Source: Cupriavidus sp. (GTDB lineage Bacteria; Pseudomonadota; Gammaproteobacteria; Burkholderiales; Burkholderiaceae). From it: a DNA stretch of 64,000 bases. Of the stretch, positions 44,530 to 54,429 are shown piece by piece (the first letter of the stretch is position 1; the number at the start of each line of letters is the position of its first letter). The translations under genes and the position numbers were made by a program. The notes under the pieces were generated by a model. That model worked only from the letters and a program-made list of their open reading frames with translations, was not told the DNA's origin and searched no databases. The stretch spans positions 1 to 64,000 of the forward strand of contig JAPSLP010000006.1 of the NCBI GenBank assembly GCA_031180665.1, in the 5' to 3' direction.

Positions 44530-45963
44530 TTATATGGAGCTTGCCTGCCGCATCTGCACGGCGGGATCGCCCAGGATCACGTAGTTGCGTGCGTCGTCGC
44601 GCATCACCCAGCGCAGCGCCAGTTCGCGATCCGGCACCACGGCGCCGGCCTGCCGCTCGCGCAGCAGATCGGCAAGCTCCGTGCTCAATGCCGCCCAGCG
44701 CAGGTTGAAGCGGTCCGTCGCGTGGCCGATGCGATCGCCGCGCAGGAGGCTGCCGATCACGTCGCGAAAGCCCTGCGTCTGCGGCGCGGCCCGCGTGTTC
44801 TGAAAACTGTAGGCCCAGGCCCGATCGACATGTCCGAGCACCGCCAGCGCGCCTCCCCCGGGATGGGCGAGCAGGCGCTGCGGCAGGCGCGCGGTGCGGG
44901 GAGCCTGGGCGATCCGCACGGGGGCGTCTGCCGGCGCGAAATCGTCGAACTCCGGCACGCCCGCGCCGTAGCAGGCAAAGCAGAAATAAATCATGCCGTG
45001 ACAGTCCATATCGTCGGGCAGATCGCCGGCGCCGAGCCAGTGGTCAGGCCCGATGGCCCCATAGCCTTGCCAGTCCTGGCAGACGATGGCCCCCTGCATG
45101 TCCGCCTGGCGGGGGTCCTGCGGACGCAGGCTCACGCCATGCGTGCCGGTGAACAGCAGCGACGGCGCGCCGCCGGTCAGCTTGCCACGCAGTATGTCGC
45201 GCAGCGCGGCCTTGGTGGCGGCCTCGGCGAGTACCGGATGGAAGGCGATGTCGGGTCGTCGCCCCAGCGCCTCGGCGAGGGGACCGGCCAGCTGGCGCGT
45301 CAGCAGGCGCGTCGCACGGTCGAAATCGTGGCACGTCGCGAACAGCACGCTGCTGGCCGCTGTCTGCGTGCGGTCTGTCGATTCCCACGCCACGATGCTT
45401 TCCGCGTAGCGGCGCAAATCCTCGGGCGCGGGGAAGTCGAGCCGGCCGACTGCCCAATACAGATCGAGCGTGTATTGGAACGCGTAAGGAATCTGCTGTG
45501 GCGATCCGACCAGCGCCAGATAGTAGGGCACGCCCAGTTCCGGATCGACCAGGTTCAAGGAGGCGCCATGCCGGCTCAGCCAGGCACTCGCGCTCTCGCC
45601 CGGCTGGCAGCCGGCCGCGCCGTGGAAGACGCGAAAACGGGCGCCAGCCTGTTCGCGCCGCCTGCCGATCAACGGCGCCAGCGCGTCAAGCCACGGAGCC
45701 GGATCGGTCCCGCTGGCGAATACCAGACCCCAGCCCGCTTGTTGGAGCGCATTGGCGCAGACGTCCCCCATCAAGGCAAACGTGCGCGCCTGCCGCGACT
45801 TCTCCGCGGCCGCTTCCGGCGAGCGCCGATGGCGGGCTTCGCGCCGTCCGAACGCATCGAAGCTGCGGGGATCGATCGGTGGCAGCGGCAGGCCGGTATC
45901 GGCGTCCACCCCGAGGGGCAGCGGCGCCTCGCCGTCGGCCGGTTCCGCGGCTGCGGTAGTCAT
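44530..45963 (-). CDS. Gingipain/caspase-fold cysteine protease-like protein
   Basis: 477-aa protein that reads as a C25 (gingipain)-type member of the caspase-haemoglobinase fold. The candidate catalytic histidine is H275 (LLFTGTHGVSL) and cysteine C331 (IYFCFACYGAG), each after a hydrophobic strand, and the C-terminal YVILGDPAVQMR is the segment that closes many C25 domains. YYLALVGSPQQIPYAFQY (148-165) also fits. There is no signal peptide, unlike secreted gingipains, so it would act in the cytoplasm. It is the last gene of the five-gene operon and overlaps the hydrolase gene by 4 bp (ATGA). Proteolytic activity and target are inferred from motifs; I have no alignment. Confidence 0.7.
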   Translation of the reverse strand: MTTAAAEPADGEAPLPLGVDADTGLPLPPIDPRSFDAFGRREARHRRSPEAAAEKSRQARTFALMGDVCANALQQAGWGLVFASGTDPAPWLDALAPLIGRRREQAGARFRVFHGAAGCQPGESASAWLSRHGASLNLVDPELGVPYYLALVGSPQQIPYAFQYTLDLYWAVGRLDFPAPEDLRRYAESIVAWESTDRTQTAASSVLFATCHDFDRATRLLTRQLAGPLAEALGRRPDIAFHPVLAEAATKAALRDILRGKLTGGAPSLLFTGTHGVSLRPQDPRQADMQGAIVCQDWQGYGAIGPDHWLGAGDLPDDMDCHGMIYFCFACYGAGVPEFDDFAPADAPVRIAQAPRTARLPQRLLAHPGGGALAVLGHVDRAWAYSFQNTRAAPQTQGFRDVIGSLLRGDRIGHATDRFNLRWAALSTELADLLRERQAGAVVPDRELALRWVMRDDARNYVILGDPAVQMRQASSI

Positions 45964-47309
45964 GATCCGCTCCTGTCCGCCGCCATGGCGGCCTGCCAGA
46001 TCAGATGGGCGACCTCCGGTCCGTCGATATCGCTGTGCGCGCCCGAGATGCCATCGCCCTTGCGGATGTACTGGCTGGCGTCGAGATTGAACACGTCGCC
46101 TTCGCTCCAGGGATAGACGCCATCGACGCCGAGCATCGACGCATCCTGGACACTGTCGATGCCTTGCAGGCCAAAGGCGCCGATCGCGCCGTACTTCGGC
46201 AGCGCCGAGGTCTCCGCAAGCGCCAGCTGGCCTGCCACGCCGGCGGCCCAGGGGTAGAGCACACCGACCGCGCTGTCGTGACGCGACCGGGTCACGGCGA
46301 TCGGCCCGCTCACCTTGCCGTGCGTCAGGATGCCGTGGCAATAGCCCGGCGTGCCGCGCTGCAGCGGGATGTCGGGCGAATAGGACCAGATCGACATCGC
46401 GCCCTGGATCAGCACGCAACTGCCCACGGGCCGCTGCAGGGGCGCATTGCCGCCGTGGCCCGCCAGCGCCGCTGACATCACCACGCAGCCGAAACTGTGG
46501 CCAACCAGATGCAGCCGGATCGCGGGCGCGACCGCATATATCCGGTTGAGCAACGGATGCAGCGCGGTCTCGCCGATCCGCTGCCCGCGCTTTTTCATGG
46601 TCCAGAAGGACAGTTGCCGCAGCGGCGCCAGGATGCCGGCGAGCGAAGGAGCGCCGAAGGCCGCATCGACCTGCACCGCGTCGTCGAAGGCCTGCTCCGG
46701 ATCGAACGGCAGGCGATCCGACGACAAATCGCCGCCCAGGCCCTGGGCGCCCAGCTCCAGTTCCCGATCGAGCGCGCGGTAGGCAAGTTGCGCCTGGGCT
46801 GGCAGCCGCATGGCATCGGGCTCGGTGCGTGCCACCTCGATGATGGTGGCGAGCGCCGCGCGGACCTGCGGCGTATCGCCAAGGCGCTCGGCGTAGGCGT
46901 CGATCAGGGCTTGCGGGCCGATCGCCCCGGCCGCCGCGAAGCTGCCATCGCCAGTCCCGGGCTCATCGCCCATCTCCTCGTCGCCCCAGGGCTGGCTCGG
47001 CCAATGCAGGCCGACGTGCTCGATCCGCATATCGGGCTGCCGCGCCAGCGCCGCCTCCCGGTCGGCGCCCTGGCGCTCGAAGGCGCCGATCCATCTGCTG
47101 TATTGCGCCAGCGCCGCCGGCATGTCGCCCTTCCAGCCGTGGCACCACAGAAAGGCGTCGGTGGGGGGCGCGCCGCGCCAGCGTTCGAGCAGCCGCAGCG
47201 ACAGGCGGCCCGATTCGCCGTCCGGGTCGTCGCTGCGTTCGTTGCCATCCGCGTCGAAGGCGATCAGGGCATAGCGAACGCCGGATTCCGGCAAGGTCAC
47301 GAAAGGCAT
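45960..47309 (-). CDS. Serine alpha/beta hydrolase in conflict operon
   Basis: 449-aa cytoplasmic alpha/beta hydrolase. Oxyanion-strand motif FLWCHGWKGD (53-62), nucleophile elbow LHLVGHSFGC (S272), candidate acid D345 (RSRHDSAVG) and base H425 (GAHSDIDGPEVAHLIW). A long helical insert (residues ~110-260) lies before the elbow. The class includes lipases and esterases; membrane lipid attack is a possible effector action, not shown. ATG 47309 has GAGGAGA 6 bp upstream. It is 52 bp downstream of the nSTAND gene and overlaps the caspase-fold gene by 4 bp. Confidence 0.75.
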   Translation of the reverse strand: MPFVTLPESGVRYALIAFDADGNERSDDPDGESGRLSLRLLERWRGAPPTDAFLWCHGWKGDMPAALAQYSRWIGAFERQGADREAALARQPDMRIEHVGLHWPSQPWGDEEMGDEPGTGDGSFAAAGAIGPQALIDAYAERLGDTPQVRAALATIIEVARTEPDAMRLPAQAQLAYRALDRELELGAQGLGGDLSSDRLPFDPEQAFDDAVQVDAAFGAPSLAGILAPLRQLSFWTMKKRGQRIGETALHPLLNRIYAVAPAIRLHLVGHSFGCVVMSAALAGHGGNAPLQRPVGSCVLIQGAMSIWSYSPDIPLQRGTPGYCHGILTHGKVSGPIAVTRSRHDSAVGVLYPWAAGVAGQLALAETSALPKYGAIGAFGLQGIDSVQDASMLGVDGVYPWSEGDVFNLDASQYIRKGDGISGAHSDIDGPEVAHLIWQAAMAADRSGS

Positions 47310-47361
47310 GGCGATTCTCCTCGACAGTGGGCAGGTGAGATGGCGCGGGGCGGCACCGCCG

Positions 47362-50300
47362 CTACGAAGCGTCGGCGGCGGGAATGAACGATTCGCATGG
47401 CGCCGGGGCGATGAAGCCGCCTTTGAGCAGCGAGCGCTTCTGCCGGTCCGTGAAGCCGCCGCCCACGATCGCACATGCGGTCGCACGCCAGGCATCGGGA
47501 TCGAGATTCCACTCGGCGGCGACTTCGGTACCCGCCGAGTAGAGATGCTTGCCGTCGTCGGATACCGAAAGAAACGCGATGGGCTGGCGGCGATCGCCAT
47601 CGCGATAGACCGATTGCGTCAGCGGCAGCAGGCCGCGGCCGTCCGCCGGCAGCAGGAACAGGTTGCCGTGGTCGTCGCCGGCCACGACGAAGGGCGCCCC
47701 GGGCGGCATCGTCAGCGCGGTGATGACGCCCGAGGCATCATGCTTGAGCACCGTCACCACGGGTTCGCTGACGGGCTTGCCGGGCGCTGCATCGTCGCGC
47801 CCTCCCTCGACCGGGACGCGATAGACCTTGCCCAGATAGTTGCCTGCCAACAGCGCCTGCCCATGCGGTTCGAACGCCAGGCTGGTGATCTGGCCGCGCG
47901 GCAGATGGTCGAATGCGCGCTTGCGGACGATGCTCGCCCCGGCGCAGCCGCTCCTGGGCAGCGTGATCGTCCACAACCGTACCTTGTCGTCTTCGGCCAC
48001 GGCCAGCTCGTGTGCGGCGCCAGGGCGGAACACCGCGTTGGACGCCTTGCGCAGATCGTCCGGCAACGCGATGGCGCACGGCGAGCCGGCCTCGGCAAGC
48101 GAGCTGCGCGTCGCCGCCGCGGGCAAGCGCCATAGCTGCAGCTGCCGGCTGACATTGCGATCGACCGAGCGGATCGCCAGCAGCGCGCCATCCGGGCTCA
48201 GCGCCACGCGGACCAGGGAGCCGGCGTGCACGCCCGGCATCCGCACCCACTCCCGTGCGCCGCCCGCGCCGGCGACGAACACGTCGCCATTGCCGTCGAC
48301 CAGCGCGAGCCGCCGCGCGGTGCGCGCCCAGTCCATCGCCTGCACCGGGGTGGCGGGCGGTCCCGCCGCTCGCGCCGGCGGCGCCGCGTCGCGGTATCCG
48401 GCCGGCAGCCACGCCATGCCACCCTCGCCCGACGCCGCCACGGTAGGAGGCTGGCTGCCCGGCAATGCCAGCAGCAAGGGCGGCGCGCCGTCGTGGCCCC
48501 GTGCGACGATGCGGGCCATCGGATGCACCGGTGTTGCGGTCCGCAGCTGCAGCAGTTCGCCCTGCTCGGACGAGGCGACCGCCTGGTCCGCCTTCGGTCC
48601 GAGCGCCAGGCCCGCTATCTGGAATGGCAAATCGACCAGCACGGAGCGGCGCACCTCCATGCCCTCCGGATCGAGCTGCCACTTGATGACGCGGCCATCC
48701 CAGCCCGCCGACAGCAACACGCCATCGCCCTGGAACACCATCCGCACCACCGCGTCGTCGTGCCCGAGCAGCGGACGCGGCCAGCGGCCCCCGTCGCCGG
48801 TGCGCCAGACGGTAATGCGTCCGGAGCGCGAGCCGGCCGCGGCGAGCTTGCCGTCGGGACTGACTGCCACGCTATGCAGGCCGGTGTACCAGTTGTTCGC
48901 ATCCGGCGGAGCCAGCAGCGCCTGGGCCGGCGTCTCGGGGCGCACGCGTGCATTGCCTTCGGCCGCGGACTCCGGCAGCTGCCACATATAGGCCGCGCTG
49001 TCCCAGCCCGACGTCGCCAGGCGCCGCCCGCGATCGAACAGCGTGAGGTCCGTCACCCGTGAGCGATGGGCGTCGATCGCCGCGATGGGCGTGGCGCGCT
49101 GCGCGGGCGGCAGGGACAGGTCCCATACCGCAATGCGCCCGCTGTCATAGCCGGCCGCGAGCCGACTGCCGTCGCCGGTCAGCGAGGACACACCGCCGAG
49201 CCCGCGCTGCCTGCCGATGTCCGGCATGGCCAAGGCGGCGGGCGCCGCCGCGCCGGTCAGGTCCCACAGCGTGACGCTGCCATCCTGGCCGCCGACCGCC
49301 AGTAGCGCCGGTCCGGCCAGCGCAAACGCACGCACGCCGGCCGGATGCCAGGCCGCCAGCGCCTCCGTCGCCAGCCGCACCGCGGGGCCACCCTGCAGCG
49401 GCACGATCTCGAGCTCGGACCTTCGGGGATGGAGCCAGCCGAGCACGCGATAGTTCGCATTGGCCTGCACCGTCAGCGTCCTGCCGTCTGCCCGCATCAG
49501 ATAGCGTTCGATATGCCGGGCGCGTTCCATCGCGCTCACCAGGGTGCGGCGGAAGTCGAAGCCGCCGGGCGGCCGATGCAGGCTGTGTCCCGCCATGCCC
49601 TGGACCGCCGCGAGCAGCGCCACGTCCGGCGCCGGTCGGGCACTGACCACCGACAGCAGCATGTTCTGGCGATTGAGCTTGAACGCCAGCAGCAGCGTGA
49701 CGACCGTCAGCCCGACCATCGCCAGCGCCGCGCCGTAGCCGATTTGCCGCAGCCGGCGCGCCCGCGTTCGCTCGATTGCATCGCGCCGATAGTCGGCCAG
49801 GAAGCGGTTCTCCGCATCGCTGTGCAGCTGCGGCGACTCGCGCAGGGCCGCTTCGATTTCCTCCGGCGCCGCTTCGCGCAGCAGGGCTGGATGCTCGTTG
49901 GCCATGGTCCAGGCTCGCACCAGGTTCTTCCAGTGCGGCAGGTGCCGCTCGCGCCAGCGCCCATTGCTGGCACGCACCGGGCCCACCAGCCGGTCGTGCG
50001 CGAGTTCGAACCACTGGGCGTCCTGCCGGCTCTGCGCGCGGACCAGGTACAGGCGCTGCAGCGTCGCCAGCTCTTGCGCGGTGGGCGCGGATTTCGCGCC
50101 GCTGTCCAGCATCACCAGCGAACGCAGGTTCGATGCGGTGATCAGCTTGTCCTCGATCCAGTCCCGCAGCACACGCTGGCGCACCACCGCGGGCGCCGCA
50201 CTCTCGAGCGTGGCGTTGTAATACGCTTCGAGCGCCGCACCGGTATCGAGAGGTTCGACGTCCTGCAGGCCGATATGCGCGCCGGCCGGCGGCGGCTTGG

Positions 50301-51117
50301 CGTCGAAGCACGCCGACCACAGATTCATGCCGATCACCTGCAGTTGCACCGGTTCGACATAGCGGCCGTCGCGATACGCCGGTTGGTGATTGGAGCCCGG
50401 CATGCGCACCTTCGCCAGATCCCGCGCCAGGTGCCGGGCGGCGTCTTCATCGAACGCGACGCCCGCCGCGTTTGCCGGCCCGATCAGGGCCTGCACGGCC
50501 TGCTCGCGCGAAAGCAGGTCGATGCGCATCGTGTTGTTCAAGCGCGTGGGCACGCGGTCGCGATAGGCATCCAGCCACGAAAAGAACTCCTCCCGCATCG
50601 AGAACAGCGCCCACACATGGCTGCCGCCATGGCCGAGCAGATCGCCCAGCTGCGTGAAAAAGGCCAGCTTGTCGCCGGTATCGTTGGCGTCGGCGGTGAA
50701 GATCTCTTCGAACTGATCGAAGATCAGCAGCATCCGTCGCGGGCGCGATCCAGGCGGGTCGCCGCCGGTGCGCGACAGATACGACAGCAGCGTATCGTCC
50801 GGGCGCGCCGGGGCCTGGGCCGAGGACCAGCACTGCAGGACGCTCCATACATAGCGATTGACCGGCTCGCCCTCGGCTGGCGCGTGCGCGCCGACCCGCG
50901 CGGTGGGCAACATGTCGAAGCGATCGCGCAGCCGCGGTCGCAAGCCGGCCTCGATCAGCGAACTCTTGCCGGCGCCCGACGGCGAGTACAGCACGACGAT
51001 GCGATCGGCGACGAGCCGGTAGCCCAGTTCCTCGATCTCGCGGTCCCGCCCGAAGATTGGCGTGCGTTCCGTCAACGGCGCCGGGCCGATATAGGGCAGA
51101 TGGGGCGCGGATGCCAT
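47362..51117 (-). CDS. nSTAND1 NTPase with transmembrane helix and WD40 propeller
   Basis: 1251-aa STAND-type NTPase. Walker A YSPSGAGKSS (44-53, K51), Walker B MLLIFDQFEEIF (129-140, D134), a helical region with WFELAHDRLVGPV (369-381) typical of the nSTAND1 group, one predicted membrane helix (IGYGAALAMVGLTVVTLLLAF, 459-479), then about 750 residues of beta-propeller repeats (GGQDGSVTLWDLTG, AAGYDSGRIAVWDL, ATSGWDSAAYMWQL, AAAGSRSGRITVWRTG, SAGWDGRVIKWQL). Such proteins sense a ligand by the propeller and assemble on NTP binding. It is the central gene of the operon, 9 bp downstream of the CHAT-SIR2 gene. Sensor role inferred from the family. Confidence 0.9.
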   Translation of the reverse strand: MASAPHLPYIGPAPLTERTPIFGRDREIEELGYRLVADRIVVLYSPSGAGKSSLIEAGLRPRLRDRFDMLPTARVGAHAPAEGEPVNRYVWSVLQCWSSAQAPARPDDTLLSYLSRTGGDPPGSRPRRMLLIFDQFEEIFTADANDTGDKLAFFTQLGDLLGHGGSHVWALFSMREEFFSWLDAYRDRVPTRLNNTMRIDLLSREQAVQALIGPANAAGVAFDEDAARHLARDLAKVRMPGSNHQPAYRDGRYVEPVQLQVIGMNLWSACFDAKPPPAGAHIGLQDVEPLDTGAALEAYYNATLESAAPAVVRQRVLRDWIEDKLITASNLRSLVMLDSGAKSAPTAQELATLQRLYLVRAQSRQDAQWFELAHDRLVGPVRASNGRWRERHLPHWKNLVRAWTMANEHPALLREAAPEEIEAALRESPQLHSDAENRFLADYRRDAIERTRARRLRQIGYGAALAMVGLTVVTLLLAFKLNRQNMLLSVVSARPAPDVALLAAVQGMAGHSLHRPPGGFDFRRTLVSAMERARHIERYLMRADGRTLTVQANANYRVLGWLHPRRSELEIVPLQGGPAVRLATEALAAWHPAGVRAFALAGPALLAVGGQDGSVTLWDLTGAAAPAALAMPDIGRQRGLGGVSSLTGDGSRLAAGYDSGRIAVWDLSLPPAQRATPIAAIDAHRSRVTDLTLFDRGRRLATSGWDSAAYMWQLPESAAEGNARVRPETPAQALLAPPDANNWYTGLHSVAVSPDGKLAAAGSRSGRITVWRTGDGGRWPRPLLGHDDAVVRMVFQGDGVLLSAGWDGRVIKWQLDPEGMEVRRSVLVDLPFQIAGLALGPKADQAVASSEQGELLQLRTATPVHPMARIVARGHDGAPPLLLALPGSQPPTVAASGEGGMAWLPAGYRDAAPPARAAGPPATPVQAMDWARTARRLALVDGNGDVFVAGAGGAREWVRMPGVHAGSLVRVALSPDGALLAIRSVDRNVSRQLQLWRLPAAATRSSLAEAGSPCAIALPDDLRKASNAVFRPGAAHELAVAEDDKVRLWTITLPRSGCAGASIVRKRAFDHLPRGQITSLAFEPHGQALLAGNYLGKVYRVPVEGGRDDAAPGKPVSEPVVTVLKHDASGVITALTMPPGAPFVVAGDDHGNLFLLPADGRGLLPLTQSVYRDGDRRQPIAFLSVSDDGKHLYSAGTEVAAEWNLDPDAWRATACAIVGGGFTDRQKRSLLKGGFIAPAPCESFIPAADAS

Positions 51118-51127
51118 GGCCGCCTCG

Positions 51128-53194
51128 CTACGGCCGCAGACGCCGCTGCAGTTCCGCGACGAACATGGCGACGTCGCCCCAGTACAGCTTCATCCTCGCC
51201 TTGTCCTGGAAATAGCGCTCCAGGTAGCGCCGTGCGCTGACCGGGTCGAGAATGCTGTTCGGATCGAGCTGAGCGGACATATGCAGGTATTCGCTGCGCA
51301 GATCGGCCCCTTCCTGATTCAGGATGGTGCGGAACAGCACGCGGAAGTCCCACGATTGCACGTCGAAGCCGACGATCAGCAGCGCGCTGTCGTTCAGCCG
51401 CGCGCGAATCGGCAGCGGAATGATGGCGTCCAGGTTCTTGGACACGCTGATCAGGTAGTCGAAGTACTGATCCTCGGTCAGCACCAGCGAGCGGGGTTCG
51501 CGCAGGTCGCCGAACATCTTGAACACCATCGGCGTGCGCGTGGTGGGGCGGGCATCGCGATGGTCGACCGTCAGCGCGTCGTCACACGCTTCGGCCGCCG
51601 CGTTCCAGCGGCAAAGCCGCACGAATGGCCGCACTTCGCTATCGCGCGCCCGCAGCGCATGGACCAGCAGATCGCTCGGATCGGTCGTGATGTAGACCGG
51701 CAGCCGCAACTGCGCCAGCACGCGGTGGGCGTCGTCGGGCACGGCAAGGCGAGCGCCAGCCACGGCTGCGACCACTTCGCCCAGCTGCGCGACGATGTCT
51801 TCCTCATGCAGGCCGAGCAGCGGCGGCGGGATGGCGTCGCGGTATTGCTCGCACAGTTGCTGATACAGGAAGCGGTAGAACAGGCGGCGCGGCGTGACCG
51901 GCTGCTGCGAGGCCGACAGGTACTGAGCGACCTGCGGCAGTTCGTCGCGCTCATGGGCGGCCATCGGAAAGTGGAAGGTCTCCGCCCACGTCTGCGCCAT
52001 CTGCAGCCGCGAGCCGAACAGCGGCTCGCCGACACCGGGCCCGAGAATCGGCGTGGTTTCGCCATGACGGATATTGTCGATCACGGCGCGCCAGGGATCG
52101 TCGCCCGCTTCCTCTCCCGCGCCGCCCGCACCGAACCCCGGCGGATAGAAGATGCGCGCGCTTTCCAGGCGGGTGAACACCGCGGGCATCCACCAGTCCG
52201 GCTGCGTAGCGATCGCGGCGCGCGCGACGCCGGCGGCCCGGTCCACTTCGCCGTGTTCGCGCAATTCGGCGAAGAACAGCGGCATGAAGGTCCCCATGCT
52301 TTCCATGCCGACATTGCCCTGCATGGCCAGCACGGCCGGCACGCCCGCCTGCGCCAGCAGCGGGCCGAGCGCCTTCATCATGTCCCCGCCACGGGCTGGC
52401 CCGGTGCCCGCGCTCTGGCACGAGCAAAGCACCACCAGGCTGGGCGGCCGCTCGAGCAGGCCGATCCGGTTGACCAGCACCCGGCCCGCGACCAGGTCGC
52501 GCGAGCCATCGACGCGTTCGAGCCACAGCATCGGTTCGTCGTCGATCATCGCGCCGTGGCAAACCAGATAGAACACCTCGACGCCCTCGCGCAGGGCCGC
52601 GAACATCCGCTCCGTGCCGGCCTGTCCCGGCTCGGCCAGCGTGGTGACCGGAATCGGCGCCAGCGCGGCGCCGATCCGTGCCGCTTCGGCGGTCGCGTCG
52701 ATCCTGGCCAGGTCCTCGGCCAGTCCGCCGGGATTGGCCACCGCAACCAGCGCGGACACGCCGCTGCGCGGGCGCAGCCGCGGCAGCCGCATCTCGCGCG
52801 AGAACAGGTACCGCGAAAAAAAGCACCGCTGCGAGAGGCACAACGGCGCTTGGCCCCCGGGGTCGAACAGGGTCTCCCATGGCAGCACGTGCAGTTCCGT
52901 CGCATCGACGCTGACGCGCAGGCGCAGGCGCAGGTCGACGCCGGCCTCCTGCGCCGCAGTCTGCGCCGCAACGAAGGCATCGCGCACGTCGGGCGGCGCG
53001 AACAGCGTGGCAGCGAGCGCGCGGCCGCAGACCTGCGGATCGGCGTCGCGGAAGGCCGGGTTCGCCGGTGCCAGCGTCAGCGGCACCCGGGGCGTGATCA
53101 CATCGCCGGTCGGCATGCGACGCCTGGCCTCGACCTGGTATCCGCCCGGGCCGGTGCTGATCAGGATCTCCAGTTCGGCGTAGCGGTGACCCAT
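51128..53194 (-). CDS. CHAT protease-SIR2-like fusion protein
   Basis: 688 aa. Residues ~90-345 are a CHAT (caspase-like) domain: H213 in VFYLVCHGAMIDDEPMLWLE and C259 in LVVLCSCQSAGTGPARGGD form the dyad. Residues ~370-640 look SIR2-like: TPILGPGVGEP (381-391), YITTDPSDLLVHAL (501-514), PMVFKMFGDLREPRSLVLTEDQYFDYL (in two parts, 555-581) and LLIVGFDVQSWDFRVLFRTIL. In NAD-cleaving SIR2 domains the second motif has TTN and the third LHG; here they are TTD and MFG, so the catalytic His is replaced by F561. This half may sense or bind a nucleotide without NADase activity. It lies 9 bp upstream of the nSTAND gene. Confidence 0.85.
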   Translation of the reverse strand: MGHRYAELEILISTGPGGYQVEARRRMPTGDVITPRVPLTLAPANPAFRDADPQVCGRALAATLFAPPDVRDAFVAAQTAAQEAGVDLRLRLRVSVDATELHVLPWETLFDPGGQAPLCLSQRCFFSRYLFSREMRLPRLRPRSGVSALVAVANPGGLAEDLARIDATAEAARIGAALAPIPVTTLAEPGQAGTERMFAALREGVEVFYLVCHGAMIDDEPMLWLERVDGSRDLVAGRVLVNRIGLLERPPSLVVLCSCQSAGTGPARGGDMMKALGPLLAQAGVPAVLAMQGNVGMESMGTFMPLFFAELREHGEVDRAAGVARAAIATQPDWWMPAVFTRLESARIFYPPGFGAGGAGEEAGDDPWRAVIDNIRHGETTPILGPGVGEPLFGSRLQMAQTWAETFHFPMAAHERDELPQVAQYLSASQQPVTPRRLFYRFLYQQLCEQYRDAIPPPLLGLHEEDIVAQLGEVVAAVAGARLAVPDDAHRVLAQLRLPVYITTDPSDLLVHALRARDSEVRPFVRLCRWNAAAEACDDALTVDHRDARPTTRTPMVFKMFGDLREPRSLVLTEDQYFDYLISVSKNLDAIIPLPIRARLNDSALLIVGFDVQSWDFRVLFRTILNQEGADLRSEYLHMSAQLDPNSILDPVSARRYLERYFQDKARMKLYWGDVAMFVAELQRRLRP

Positions 53195-53221
53195 GCGAGC
53201 CCTCGTCGGAGGCCGGCCGCT

Positions 53222-54034
53222 CTAGCGGGCGCCACGCGGATCGCCGGGCAGGTAATGCCCCGTGACCCGGCGATATGCGGCCGACGTCCGCTTGCCCGGA
53301 TGGCCGTCCACCCGGACGAACACGCCGGTAAAGGTGTTGAGCCAGCGCTGCAGCCATTCGGTCGTCCTGCGCGTCGCCGGATCGGCAGGAGGGCGGGCGA
53401 CGTAGCGCACGATCAGCGGATCGTCGCCGGCGGGCGGCGACACCCGATCGCCGAAGTCGATCTCCCCCATTTCCGCCAGTCGCCGCAACAGCACGGCAGC
53501 GCCGCACTGGCGAGACACGGCGCGATCGGACCAGGTGCCGTCCGCCACATACTTGCCGCGCTCGTAATGGCCCGAAAAGCTCCACAAATAGGGGCTCAGT
53601 ACCTCGGGATGGAAGCGCCGGTAGCCGAAGCCGTTGTATCGCTCCAGCTGGTACAGCGTGCCGGCCAGGCTCCAGTCGGTGCCGTCATTCAGGCCCTTGA
53701 GCGCCAGTGCATCGGCCGCGCTGTCTTCCCAGCGGAACGGCGGCGAGCCGGTGCGCGGACGGCCCGCCGGCACGTGAGTGGTGCGTCCGGTCAAGGGATC
53801 GCCGTTGTGCAGATGGGCGTCCATGCGCTGGCTGCTTTCCATGTTGTGCACGACGGCGATGAAATGCCATGGCACCCCGGACAATTGCGACGCTGCCGCA
53901 TAGCGGCCCCTGTTCTTGAGCAGGGCCTTGACCAGCGTATCGAGCTCGGCCCGGCGGCCCGGCTGCGTGACGCACGTATCGAACAATCGCTCGTAGTCCG
54001 CACGCAGCGATGGGGTCAACGAAATGGCGGCCAT
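53222..54034 (-). CDS. Muramidase-like protein without signal peptide
   Basis: 270-aa protein with a lysozyme-like core: VPWHFIAVVHNMESSQRMDAH with candidate catalytic E66, HLHNGDPLTGRT, VPAGRPRTGSPPFRWEDSAADAL, LERYNGFGYRRFHPEVLSPYLWSFSGHY (in overlapping parts) and VSRQCGAAVLLRRL. The C-terminus (VRVDGHPGKRTSAAYRRVTGHYLPGDP) resembles a peptidoglycan-binding domain. Proteins with this core are usually described as putative peptidoglycan hydrolases. The N-terminus (MAAISLTPSLRADYERLF) is not a Sec or Tat signal, so release would need lysis or another route. First gene of the conflict-like operon, 27 bp before the CHAT-SIR2 gene. Confidence 0.75.
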   Translation of the reverse strand: MAAISLTPSLRADYERLFDTCVTQPGRRAELDTLVKALLKNRGRYAAASQLSGVPWHFIAVVHNMESSQRMDAHLHNGDPLTGRTTHVPAGRPRTGSPPFRWEDSAADALALKGLNDGTDWSLAGTLYQLERYNGFGYRRFHPEVLSPYLWSFSGHYERGKYVADGTWSDRAVSRQCGAAVLLRRLAEMGEIDFGDRVSPPAGDDPLIVRYVARPPADPATRRTTEWLQRWLNTFTGVFVRVDGHPGKRTSAAYRRVTGHYLPGDPRGAR

Positions 54035-54429
54035 GGGGACACCCTCTTTCCCCCGGCCGGTGTTCGAATCGCGCCACTGGGGCCATGTCGTTATTGGCCG
54101 GTTCGGTCCGGCACGGGCGGCAGGCCCGCTTTGCCGCCTGCGTGAAGGCTAGATCATCGAATCGGCAAAGAAAAGGCGGGCGCGTACCGGCCCGGGATGA
54201 AATGCGTGCATGACAGGTATGCAGCGGGTTTTGCGCAGGCGGGTACCGTGCAACGGCTGCTGTGCTGGTGTACCAGGTTTGCAACCTTTTTTCGGCGTCG
54301 GCGCGCGATAGAGGAATACCCGCGGCCCTTCCCACACCGGCCGCCACTGATTGCATACTGTCCCCCCGCGGACCGCCAAGCCGGCCGGCACAGACCGGCG
54401 GTGCGCCGCGATCATACAAAGGAGACACC
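54035..54429. other. Divergent spacer of the conflict operon and Bug gene
   Basis: 395 bp between the muramidase-like gene (-) and the Bug gene (+). No CDS. It contains a short stem AGGTT/AACCT followed by six T (54275-54292), a weak terminator or attenuator toward the Bug gene. No regulator gene and no clear -35/-10 for the operon were found. Confidence 0.55.

Follow-up and report, generated by a model that had tools for sequence, protein, structure and literature searches.

What does a compact cluster of five genes, all read from the minus strand, do in Cupriavidus sp.? The cluster lies in contig JAPSLP010000006.1, within the 64,000-nucleotide stretch that was analysed as a whole and is called the window below. 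An initial annotation of the window had proposed a conflict or programmed-death operon consisting of a muramidase-like protein (gene 1), a CHAT-SIR2-like fusion (gene 2), an nSTAND1 NTPase with a transmembrane segment and WD40 repeats (gene 3), a serine hydrolase (gene 4), and a protease of the C25/caspase fold (gene 5). The five open reading frames in 44530-54034 were confirmed. Calculation from the gene coordinates puts the intergenic gaps at 27, 10, 52 and -4 bp; the second had been given as 9 bp. Four of the domain assignments hold as well: gene 2 matches Pfam CHAT (3e-26) and SIR2_2 (4e-14), gene 3 matches nSTAND1 (2e-28) and WD40 (1e-23) and has a hydrophobic segment, gene 4 retains the catalytic triad, and the AlphaFold2 model of gene 5 resembles gingipains. 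Comparison with related loci indicates that the cluster is a real, conserved and probably lytic death module, whose likely purpose is abortive defence or some other programmed lysis.

The conserved core of the module is the C25 protease with the hydrolase or another effector, accompanied by CHAT and/or STAND proteins in most, not all, loci. The initial annotation had asked whether the gene set stays together. The association does recur, spanning at least five phyla, but the five-gene set is not the unit that is conserved. The scan of GTDB genomes produced 307 C25 relatives, from which the best 80 loci were taken. Loci L001-L004 and L014 were excluded because they duplicate others (L014 and L018 are one contig), and L176, L178 and L185 because they are repeats. 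The P-values given below ignore relatedness; L089 and L090, as well as several long C25 proteins, are near relatives. Among the 34 loci with at least 9 kb on both sides of C25, CHAT and/or STAND proteins are present in 30, the hydrolase in 20, and at least one of four effectors (hydrolase, a family named F1, gasdermin, lipoxygenase) in 26. The corresponding counts for all 79 loci in which C25 was called, many of them on short contigs, are 55, 33 and 50. With the window excluded, 29 of 39 called cases have the hydrolase directly next to C25, 28 times on the same strand and with a median gap of 24 bp, and chance falls far short of explaining such adjacency. Among the hosts are filamentous cyanobacteria, Chloroflexi and Acidobacteria. 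C25 and the hydrolase also occur together on plasmids of Sinorhizobium, Planktothrix and Nostoc, with divergent forms in Bradyrhizobium and Gemmobacter.

The assignment of gene 5 to the C25 family is based on both sequence and structure. The Pfam Peptidase_C25 score is 21.6 bits, just below the curated cutoff of 23, and 73 of the 74 members of the C25 alignment, gene 5 among them, match this profile at E<=0.01. A search of PDB with the C25 profile by sequence produced one chance match. The AlphaFold2 model (predicted local distance difference test, pLDDT, 91.7) retrieves the gingipains Kgp and RgpB first when compared with PDB by Foldseek (4e-8 to 1.8e-7), followed by separase. In the 74 aligned rows His275 is invariant and Cys331 is conserved in at least 90%; both are invariant in a 9-row alignment. 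No hydrophobic stretch was observed, the maximum of the 19-residue hydropathy window being 0.95 at residue 321 (no signal-peptide program was run), and the protein is presumably cytosolic since it lacks a hydrophobic signal-like N-terminus. Gingipains are secreted and have Arg/Lys specificity. Gene 5 shares with them the fold and the catalytic His and Cys, but it is operon-bound, presumably cytosolic, and predicted to prefer Phe.

The Pfam matches of gene 4 are all weak. The start was set at 47309 by homology, although the longest open reading frame extends to 47600. The GHSxG elbow is present, and the triad is conserved in almost all of the 32 aligned rows (Asp345 in 32, His425 in 32, Ser272 in 31). 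The predicted model is mostly confident (pLDDT 83.8) and contains a helical insertion, residues about 129-214, between two low-confidence loops, 109-128 and 215-223. The closest folds are the phospholipases TleB and PlaB, with E of about 2e-3 and 2e-2, none reaching E<=0.001. The protein is predicted to be phospholipase-like.

Both flexible loops of the hydrolase are marked by a short motif, roughly [VALG][SA]F[AGSD], that also marks linkers of other proteins encoded beside C25. A loose pattern, small residue-Phe (rarely Tyr)-small residue, fits loop 1 in 32 and loop 2 in 28 of the 32 aligned rows. A position-specific scoring matrix (PSSM) was made from 35 windows, 32 from hydrolase loop 1 and three stray ones from another column, and run over all called genes with a threshold score of 8, the expectation being taken from shuffled copies. 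The excess was seen in several effector families: 21 matches against 1.55 expected in F1 (11 of 15 proteins), 9 against 1.35 in lipoxygenases (4 of 7 proteins), and 8 against 1.65 in gasdermins (all 8 proteins, one of them outside the loop). The best scores were 15.4 in a PLD-like protein and 14.2 and 10.9 in two papain-like proteases. Genes more than 3 kb from C25 showed no excess (38 against 39.4); the counts were 36 against 31.4 for genes at intermediate distance and 24 against 13.6 for other adjacent genes.

The proteins in question are diverse. Gasdermins, which are known death effectors, are encoded beside C25 in eight loci, and the one compared matches PDB 7n51 (E=1e-39). Lipoxygenases occur in seven loci (3e-57 in the one scanned), F1 in 15, GH108 muramidases fused to a domain named F2 in two (1e-26 in the one scanned), a PLD-like protein in L036, and papain-like proteases in L071 and L075. 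Some or all members of five of these six families, that is, gasdermin, lipoxygenase, PLD-like, papain-like and F1, but not GH108, contain the motif. One F1 and one F2 protein were scanned against PHROGs and had no match. F2 is about 105 residues long. It occurs in standalone proteins, as the C-terminal part of many C25 proteins (about 1e-12 to 1e-23), in the GH108 muramidases (1e-19) and, with weak matches (1e-5 at best), in F1; judging from this distribution it is a candidate effector-associated adaptor domain. Apart from the many C25 C-termini, it was noted at L082 2966-3919 and L085 7038-7991.

The position of the motif was considered in two families. In the gasdermins, the C-terminal variable loop has a Phe that is invariant in all eight proteins and in a ninth and lies 21-42 residues before the C-terminus; in the closest solved gasdermin structure this position is occupied by Met. 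The ninth protein was found by a reciprocal search of 297 Acidobacteriota genomes with the gasdermin profile, which added one new genome, with C25, gasdermin and CHAT on the same contig; its loop site is IAFD (score 7.6). The loop site scores at least 8 in seven of the nine proteins, the exceptions being L028 (1.4) and this new one (L102), and in eight of nine the best-scoring site is within the last 50 residues (p=9e-6). In the lipoxygenases, linker sites are present in four of the seven C25-linked proteins, namely in all four cyanobacterial ones, and in none of 30 cyanobacterial lipoxygenases that are not beside C25 (p=5e-4). The latter have five matches, all within the catalytic domain to judge by their positions.

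The protease itself may also carry sites. Among 15 long C25 proteins (at least 850 residues), nine of which are close relatives, 12 have sites outside the core, 18 sites against 2.75 expected, one of the 18 (L028, residue 116) being a PSSM training window. L028 is a hydrolase-C25 fusion, and its site at residue 456 is situated in the interdomain linker. In C25 proteins shorter than 850 residues the excess in extensions is modest (8 sites against 2.8), and the C25 class as a whole, with 29 matches against 23.7 expected, gives no indication of an autocleavage site in proteins of ordinary length.

Two further observations concern the composition of C25 loci. Region 11484-17351 of L022 (Gemmatimonas) contains several tandem C25-like genes, one of them fused to STAND, in a locus that also has CHAT-SIR2 and gasdermin. 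A Ser/Thr kinase-like protein, F6 (TPR-like by eye), recurs in Acidobacteria and is encoded upstream of C25 in L025, L032, L040, L045, L048, L069 and L081, and once in L029, with at most one small gene between F6 and C25.

In the validation set, C25 was found in 5 of 244 cyanobacteria (one being the L053 genome, a search centre) and in 22 of 331 Chloroflexota (one being the L041 genome); 20 of the 42 matches listed for the latter were examined. All four new cyanobacterial loci have the hydrolase beside C25, with sites in all four and with CHAT/STAND as well. All seven new non-duplicate F1 proteins carry 2-3 sites.

Hydrolases that are not linked to C25 provide a comparison. In 300 genomes of Burkholderiales the hydrolase profile had one full match, the window's own protein, and two partial ones (49 and 31 positions). 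In plasmids, relatives at 1e-5 were found in 26 records, against 7 for C25, and 16 of the 20 hydrolase relatives listed are outside the seven C25-bearing records. The hydrolase genes of the Rhizobium and Rhodococcus oxybenzonivorans plasmids are about 10 bp downstream of an S8 peptidase gene, and that of R. rhodochrous has no annotated protease within about 5 kb. These three distant, C25-unlinked hydrolases have retained the GHSFG elbow as well as the aligned Asp and His; none of the three has the loop-1 Phe site or any PSSM score of at least 8, and the L195 protein has an aligned loop-2 Phe in a different sequence setting. Among five C25-linked plasmid hydrolases outside the training set, the loop-1 Phe is present in L005, L006 and L007. 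Since the unlinked hydrolases lack the sites and most of the C25-linked plasmid ones have the loop-1 Phe, hydrolase sites seem, in this small sample, to tend to follow the protease partner. The arrangement of an S8 (subtilisin-type) peptidase gene followed by the hydrolase gene, at L195 4189-7218 and L196 4123-7221, is a second pairing of the hydrolase with a protease. Divergent operons encoding a hydrolase, an unknown protein, CHAT and C25 were observed in Bradyrhizobium (L008 8971-10437) and Gemmobacter (L009 8886-10235), and the unknown protein of L008 has no Pfam match.

With moderate confidence, based on comparison of sequences, we propose that the cluster encodes a membrane-tethered, sensor-controlled lytic cell-death module in which the C25 executioner activates membrane-attacking zymogens. 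Firstly, the WD40-nSTAND1 protein would sense a trigger, oligomerise at the membrane and license the CHAT protease, the SIR2 part possibly being a dead ligand-binding or scaffold domain. Secondly, CHAT and/or the NTPase would turn on C25, which would cut after Phe in small flexible [VALG][SA]F[AGSD] sites. The hydrolase, cut at its two loops, would have its helical insertion (a putative lid) freed or removed and may then attack the membrane in a phospholipase-like manner. Finally, gene 1, if it is a wall enzyme at all, might act after membrane failure, as an endolysin follows a holin. In other lineages the partner of C25 is a gasdermin, a lipoxygenase or a PLD-like, papain-like or F1 protein, in many cases with the site, or else a GH108 muramidase, which would be tied to C25 by the common F2 domain. 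We tentatively suggest a more general rule: one C25 executioner, under STAND/CHAT control and comparable to the executioner caspases of animals, may cut a defined short site in many unrelated zymogens, with the adaptor tying in the muramidase, and effectors may be swapped provided that they bear the site or the adaptor.

A number of observations weigh against this proposal. The motif is short, and the loci used to test it were the ones in which it had first come to notice. The loose pattern also fits conserved structural positions of the hydrolase, in up to 26 of 32 rows, and hence more weight is given to the cross-family test. In that test, F2 had 2 matches against 0.6 expected and the kinase family none against 1.25; the GH108-F2 proteins have no site at the threshold, the three planctomycete lipoxygenases have none in the linker, and the gene-1 family has none in eight proteins, with a best score of -0.8 for the gene in the window. 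CHAT/STAND proteins have 132 matches against 34.4 expected, an excess presumably caused by WD40 repeats. The PSSM match of the L028 gasdermin is outside the loop, whose own site is the low-scoring one mentioned above. A strict pattern, V[ST][FY], is enriched in gasdermins (8 against 1.0) and is not relied on, as most of these matches are in the core and not in the loop. The divergent C25-linked hydrolases of L008 and L009 lack the loop-1 Phe and have only DF in loop 2. No recognised partner was found in 10 of the 21 validation loci (12 at first, before F1 was located by hand in L182 and L183). Nine of these ten loci encode a C25 subfamily of about 940 residues, and in every one of these proteins the N-terminal extension itself has one or two sites. 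Finally, according to passages of PMC9612521, other gasdermins stayed uncut when given eight residues from the site of one gasdermin, which points to an exosite; a substrate may therefore need more than a short motif.

Which of the two proteases would do the cutting has to be considered. One possibility is that CHAT cuts the shared site, with C25 acting downstream of it as a substrate or serving as a second effector; the logic of death would be the same. The CHAT dyad, His213 and Cys259, is intact in all 27 rows (the window protein being counted twice), CHAT is encoded in all eight gasdermin loci of the first set and in the ninth, and the caspase-like proteases drawn in known gasdermin operons in PMC9612521 include CHAT. 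On the other hand, F1 is encoded beside C25 with no CHAT in the DNA covered in 12 of 20 loci, although only three of these have more than 8 kb on either side of C25, and no CHAT was called in the nine Chloroflexota loci L186-L194, some of them on short contigs, where long C25 proteins have sites in cis. Because of these F1 loci, the cis sites and the linker site of L028, C25 appears to be the likelier cutter, and we consider the assignment of this role to CHAT unlikely.

It is also conceivable that [SA]F serves as a docking site for C25, CHAT or the WD40 propeller, and that effectors are activated by assembly, with proteolysis elsewhere. Several copies of the motif per protein (2-3 in many F1 proteins) and the uncut transplanted gasdermin sites would agree with docking, and the presence of F2 in C25, in the GH108 muramidase and in standalone proteins suggests that recruitment is part of the design. 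However, the gasdermin site is close to the known position of cleavage, about 20 residues from the C-terminus, and one site of the hydrolase-C25 fusion is in the linker between its domains; we regard docking as quite improbable.

A similarly small probability is given to a module of developmental or signalling proteolysis in which no cell dies, and the hydrolase and lipoxygenase make lipid-derived signals. It would suit multicellular, soil and bloom-forming hosts such as filamentous cyanobacteria, Chloroflexi and Acidobacteria, the weak link of the CHAT part of gene 2 to the cell division protein HetF (NCBIfam, 26 bits against a cutoff of 1200), and the results on flanking genes and viral contigs described below. 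Gasdermin, muramidase and PLD-like partners argue against it, as do the patchy presence of the module in Cupriavidus and its insertion where another genome has a zeta-toxin-like gene. A group of mobile genes brought together by chance or under loose selection, without joint function, to which the partnerless validation loci might point, is strongly disfavoured and very improbable in view of the close same-strand adjacency, the fusions, and the repeated association in several phyla.

The proposed lytic module resembles several known systems. The gasdermin/CARD-NLR systems of Lysobacter and Runella and LypABC of Caulobacter similarly combine a STAND/NLR-like ATPase, proteases and a membrane effector, and in them a caspase-like protease has been described whose cut follows a hydrophobic residue close to the C-terminal end of the gasdermin. 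According to passages of PMC9612521 and PMC9079055, the residue preceding the cut in bacterial gasdermins is Leu or Arg, and the cut lies about 20 residues before the C-terminus; in one of these proteins, cut by a caspase-like protease at Leu-Gly, both the Leu and the following Gly are essential (PMC9612521). PMC9612521 also places genes for lysozyme and phospholipase in the vicinity of some of the gasdermin operons, and passages of PMC13236601 describe phospholipases in place of gasdermin in some variants. However, there is no gasdermin among the five genes of the window, although eight related loci have one; the proteases are C25 and CHAT, whereas LypA and the second Lysobacter protease are trypsin-like; the window hydrolase has two candidate sites, and one motif extends over several effector families. 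No CARD match was reported for the window genes, CARDs being short and no specific search having been made.

Passages of PMC12799240 describe nuclease-protease pairs in which a proenzyme has gating insertions and protease partners were swapped in evolution. In the caspase-nuclease (canu) and Hachiman/AVAST pairs described there, a protease is coupled to a proenzyme; here, the distant hydrolases pair with S8 instead of C25. In contrast, the effector of the window is an alpha/beta hydrolase with no MBL nuclease among the five genes, and the protease is C25 rather than a paracaspase or a trypsin-like enzyme. The NTP-dependent conflict systems of the Aravind group share the vocabulary of STAND, CHAT, caspase and effector-associated domains, an alpha/beta hydrolase among the effectors, and adaptor domains linking effectors and regulators, whereas the C25-hydrolase pair, F2 and the shared motif are absent from the passages of PMC8195603 considered. 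The cluster would work like the gasdermin/CARD-NLR systems and the nuclease-protease pairs but, by the features tested, is a member of neither. Among the PADLOC models (AVAST/Avs and others), the gene set has only weak partial matches to SAVED_CHAT, ThsA and ThsB.

A literature search over titles and abstract openings, with the primary gasdermin papers outside it, found neither the C25-hydrolase pair nor the shared motif. What appears to be new is the proposed C25 executioner and the motif common to several effector families. There are precedents for the lysozyme and phospholipase parts, and the novelty could be lower if the phospholipase of the primary gasdermin papers belongs to this hydrolase family. 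If the proposal is true, bacteria make use of the caspase principle, in which a single protease acts through a single motif on many death substrates; one protease family would then connect gasdermins, lipoxygenases and wall hydrolases, and a sequence rule for finding new lytic effectors would become available. It already provides several concrete candidates with mutable sites, among them a hydrolase whose sites seem to vary with the protease it is paired with.

Table 1. Coordinates of the genes, candidate sites and inserted segment in the window
Feature	Coordinates	Strand	Description
Gene 1 (P0001), 270 aa	53222..54034	-	Signal-less putative wall hydrolase (lysozyme-like guess), weak C-terminal PG_binding_3; accessory
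Gene 2 (P0002), 688 aa	51128..53194	-	CHAT (His213, Cys259) fused to SIR2-like domain, Phe561 in place of catalytic His
Gene 3 (P0003), 1251 aa	47362..51117	-	nSTAND1 NTPase, transmembrane segment, WD40 repeats; candidate sensor/switch
Gene 3 hydrophobic segment, probably transmembrane	49675..49731	-	Residues about 463-481
Gene 4 (P0004), 449 aa	45960..47309	-	Alpha/beta hydrolase (Ser272, Asp345, His425); proposed zymogen
Gene 4 candidate cleavage site 1	46926..46952	-	GDGSFAAAG (Phe124), low-confidence loop 109-128; in PSSM training set
Gene 4 candidate cleavage site 2	46644..46670	-	VDAAFGAPS (Phe218), low-confidence loop 215-223; score 7.6
Gene 5 (P0005), 477 aa	44530..45963	-	C25/gingipain-fold cysteine protease (His275, Cys331); proposed executioner
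Inserted segment relative to three close Cupriavidus genomes	44540..54312	.	Flank comparison

The cluster is an insertion of about 9.8 kb at a variable site that is empty in two close relatives. This follows from the near-contiguity of the flanking genes (by eye, an acyl-CoA dehydrogenase and a TctC-like gene), which are about 0.35, 0.38 and 1.3 kb apart in three close Cupriavidus genomes, against 10 kb here. The left edge is at 44535-44539 by BLAST, the right one between about 54310 (by eye) and 54413 (BLAST). In the third relative, L103 (G639:C58:121527-123838), the site holds a gene with AAA_33 and Zeta_toxin matches and a small open reading frame, which suggests that this is a site of variable cargo. 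Full-length gene 2 is present in 9 of 60 genomes of the genus, and a tenth has a partial match of 32%.

A location in a defence island was not borne out. Among the flanking proteins picked (105 of 181, from 18 loci), matches at 1e-10 were scattered over 20 PADLOC families, each in one to three proteins and some of general type, for example RtcR and DEDDh; as there was no control set, this result is only suggestive. The nearest flanks in the window are, by eye, metabolic genes. A phage or prophage origin was considered and rejected: of 28 pattern-matching stretches in viral contigs none was confirmed. The Buttiauxella gene had no relatives among those sought in E. coli.

In the alignment of gene 2, none of the 27 rows (the window protein again counted twice) has a catalytic His in the SIR2 part. 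Phe561 is aligned with the His of chain 9v0g, a position occupied by Ala in the near-identical chain 9v12. An active SIR2 NADase was ruled out by this loss, and NAD depletion is therefore unlikely. In gene 3, hydropathy peaks at 2.19 at residue 463, and a segment above 1.9 is present in 38 of 39 STAND and WD proteins longer than 900 residues, the window's gene 3 included.

Gene 1 is the assignment of the initial annotation that fared worst. Its sole domain match is PG_binding_3 at E=0.015; there is no Pfam lysozyme match and no PDB match, and for this reason muramidase-like remains a weak assignment, although Glu residues are conserved. With the window counted, five of eight Cupriavidus-type loci have the gene, and it is missing from all other C25 loci of the set. 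Several of its plasmid relatives are annotated as peptidoglycan-binding, and one lies within an annotated DNA/RNA endonuclease. The latter, on a S. meliloti plasmid (L010 7805-10558), combines an N-terminal part that is trypsin-like by eye, the DNA/RNA non-specific endonuclease and the gene-1 domain; it is followed further on by genes for PAS-domain, CHAT and S8 peptidase proteins, and together they form a candidate conflict operon.

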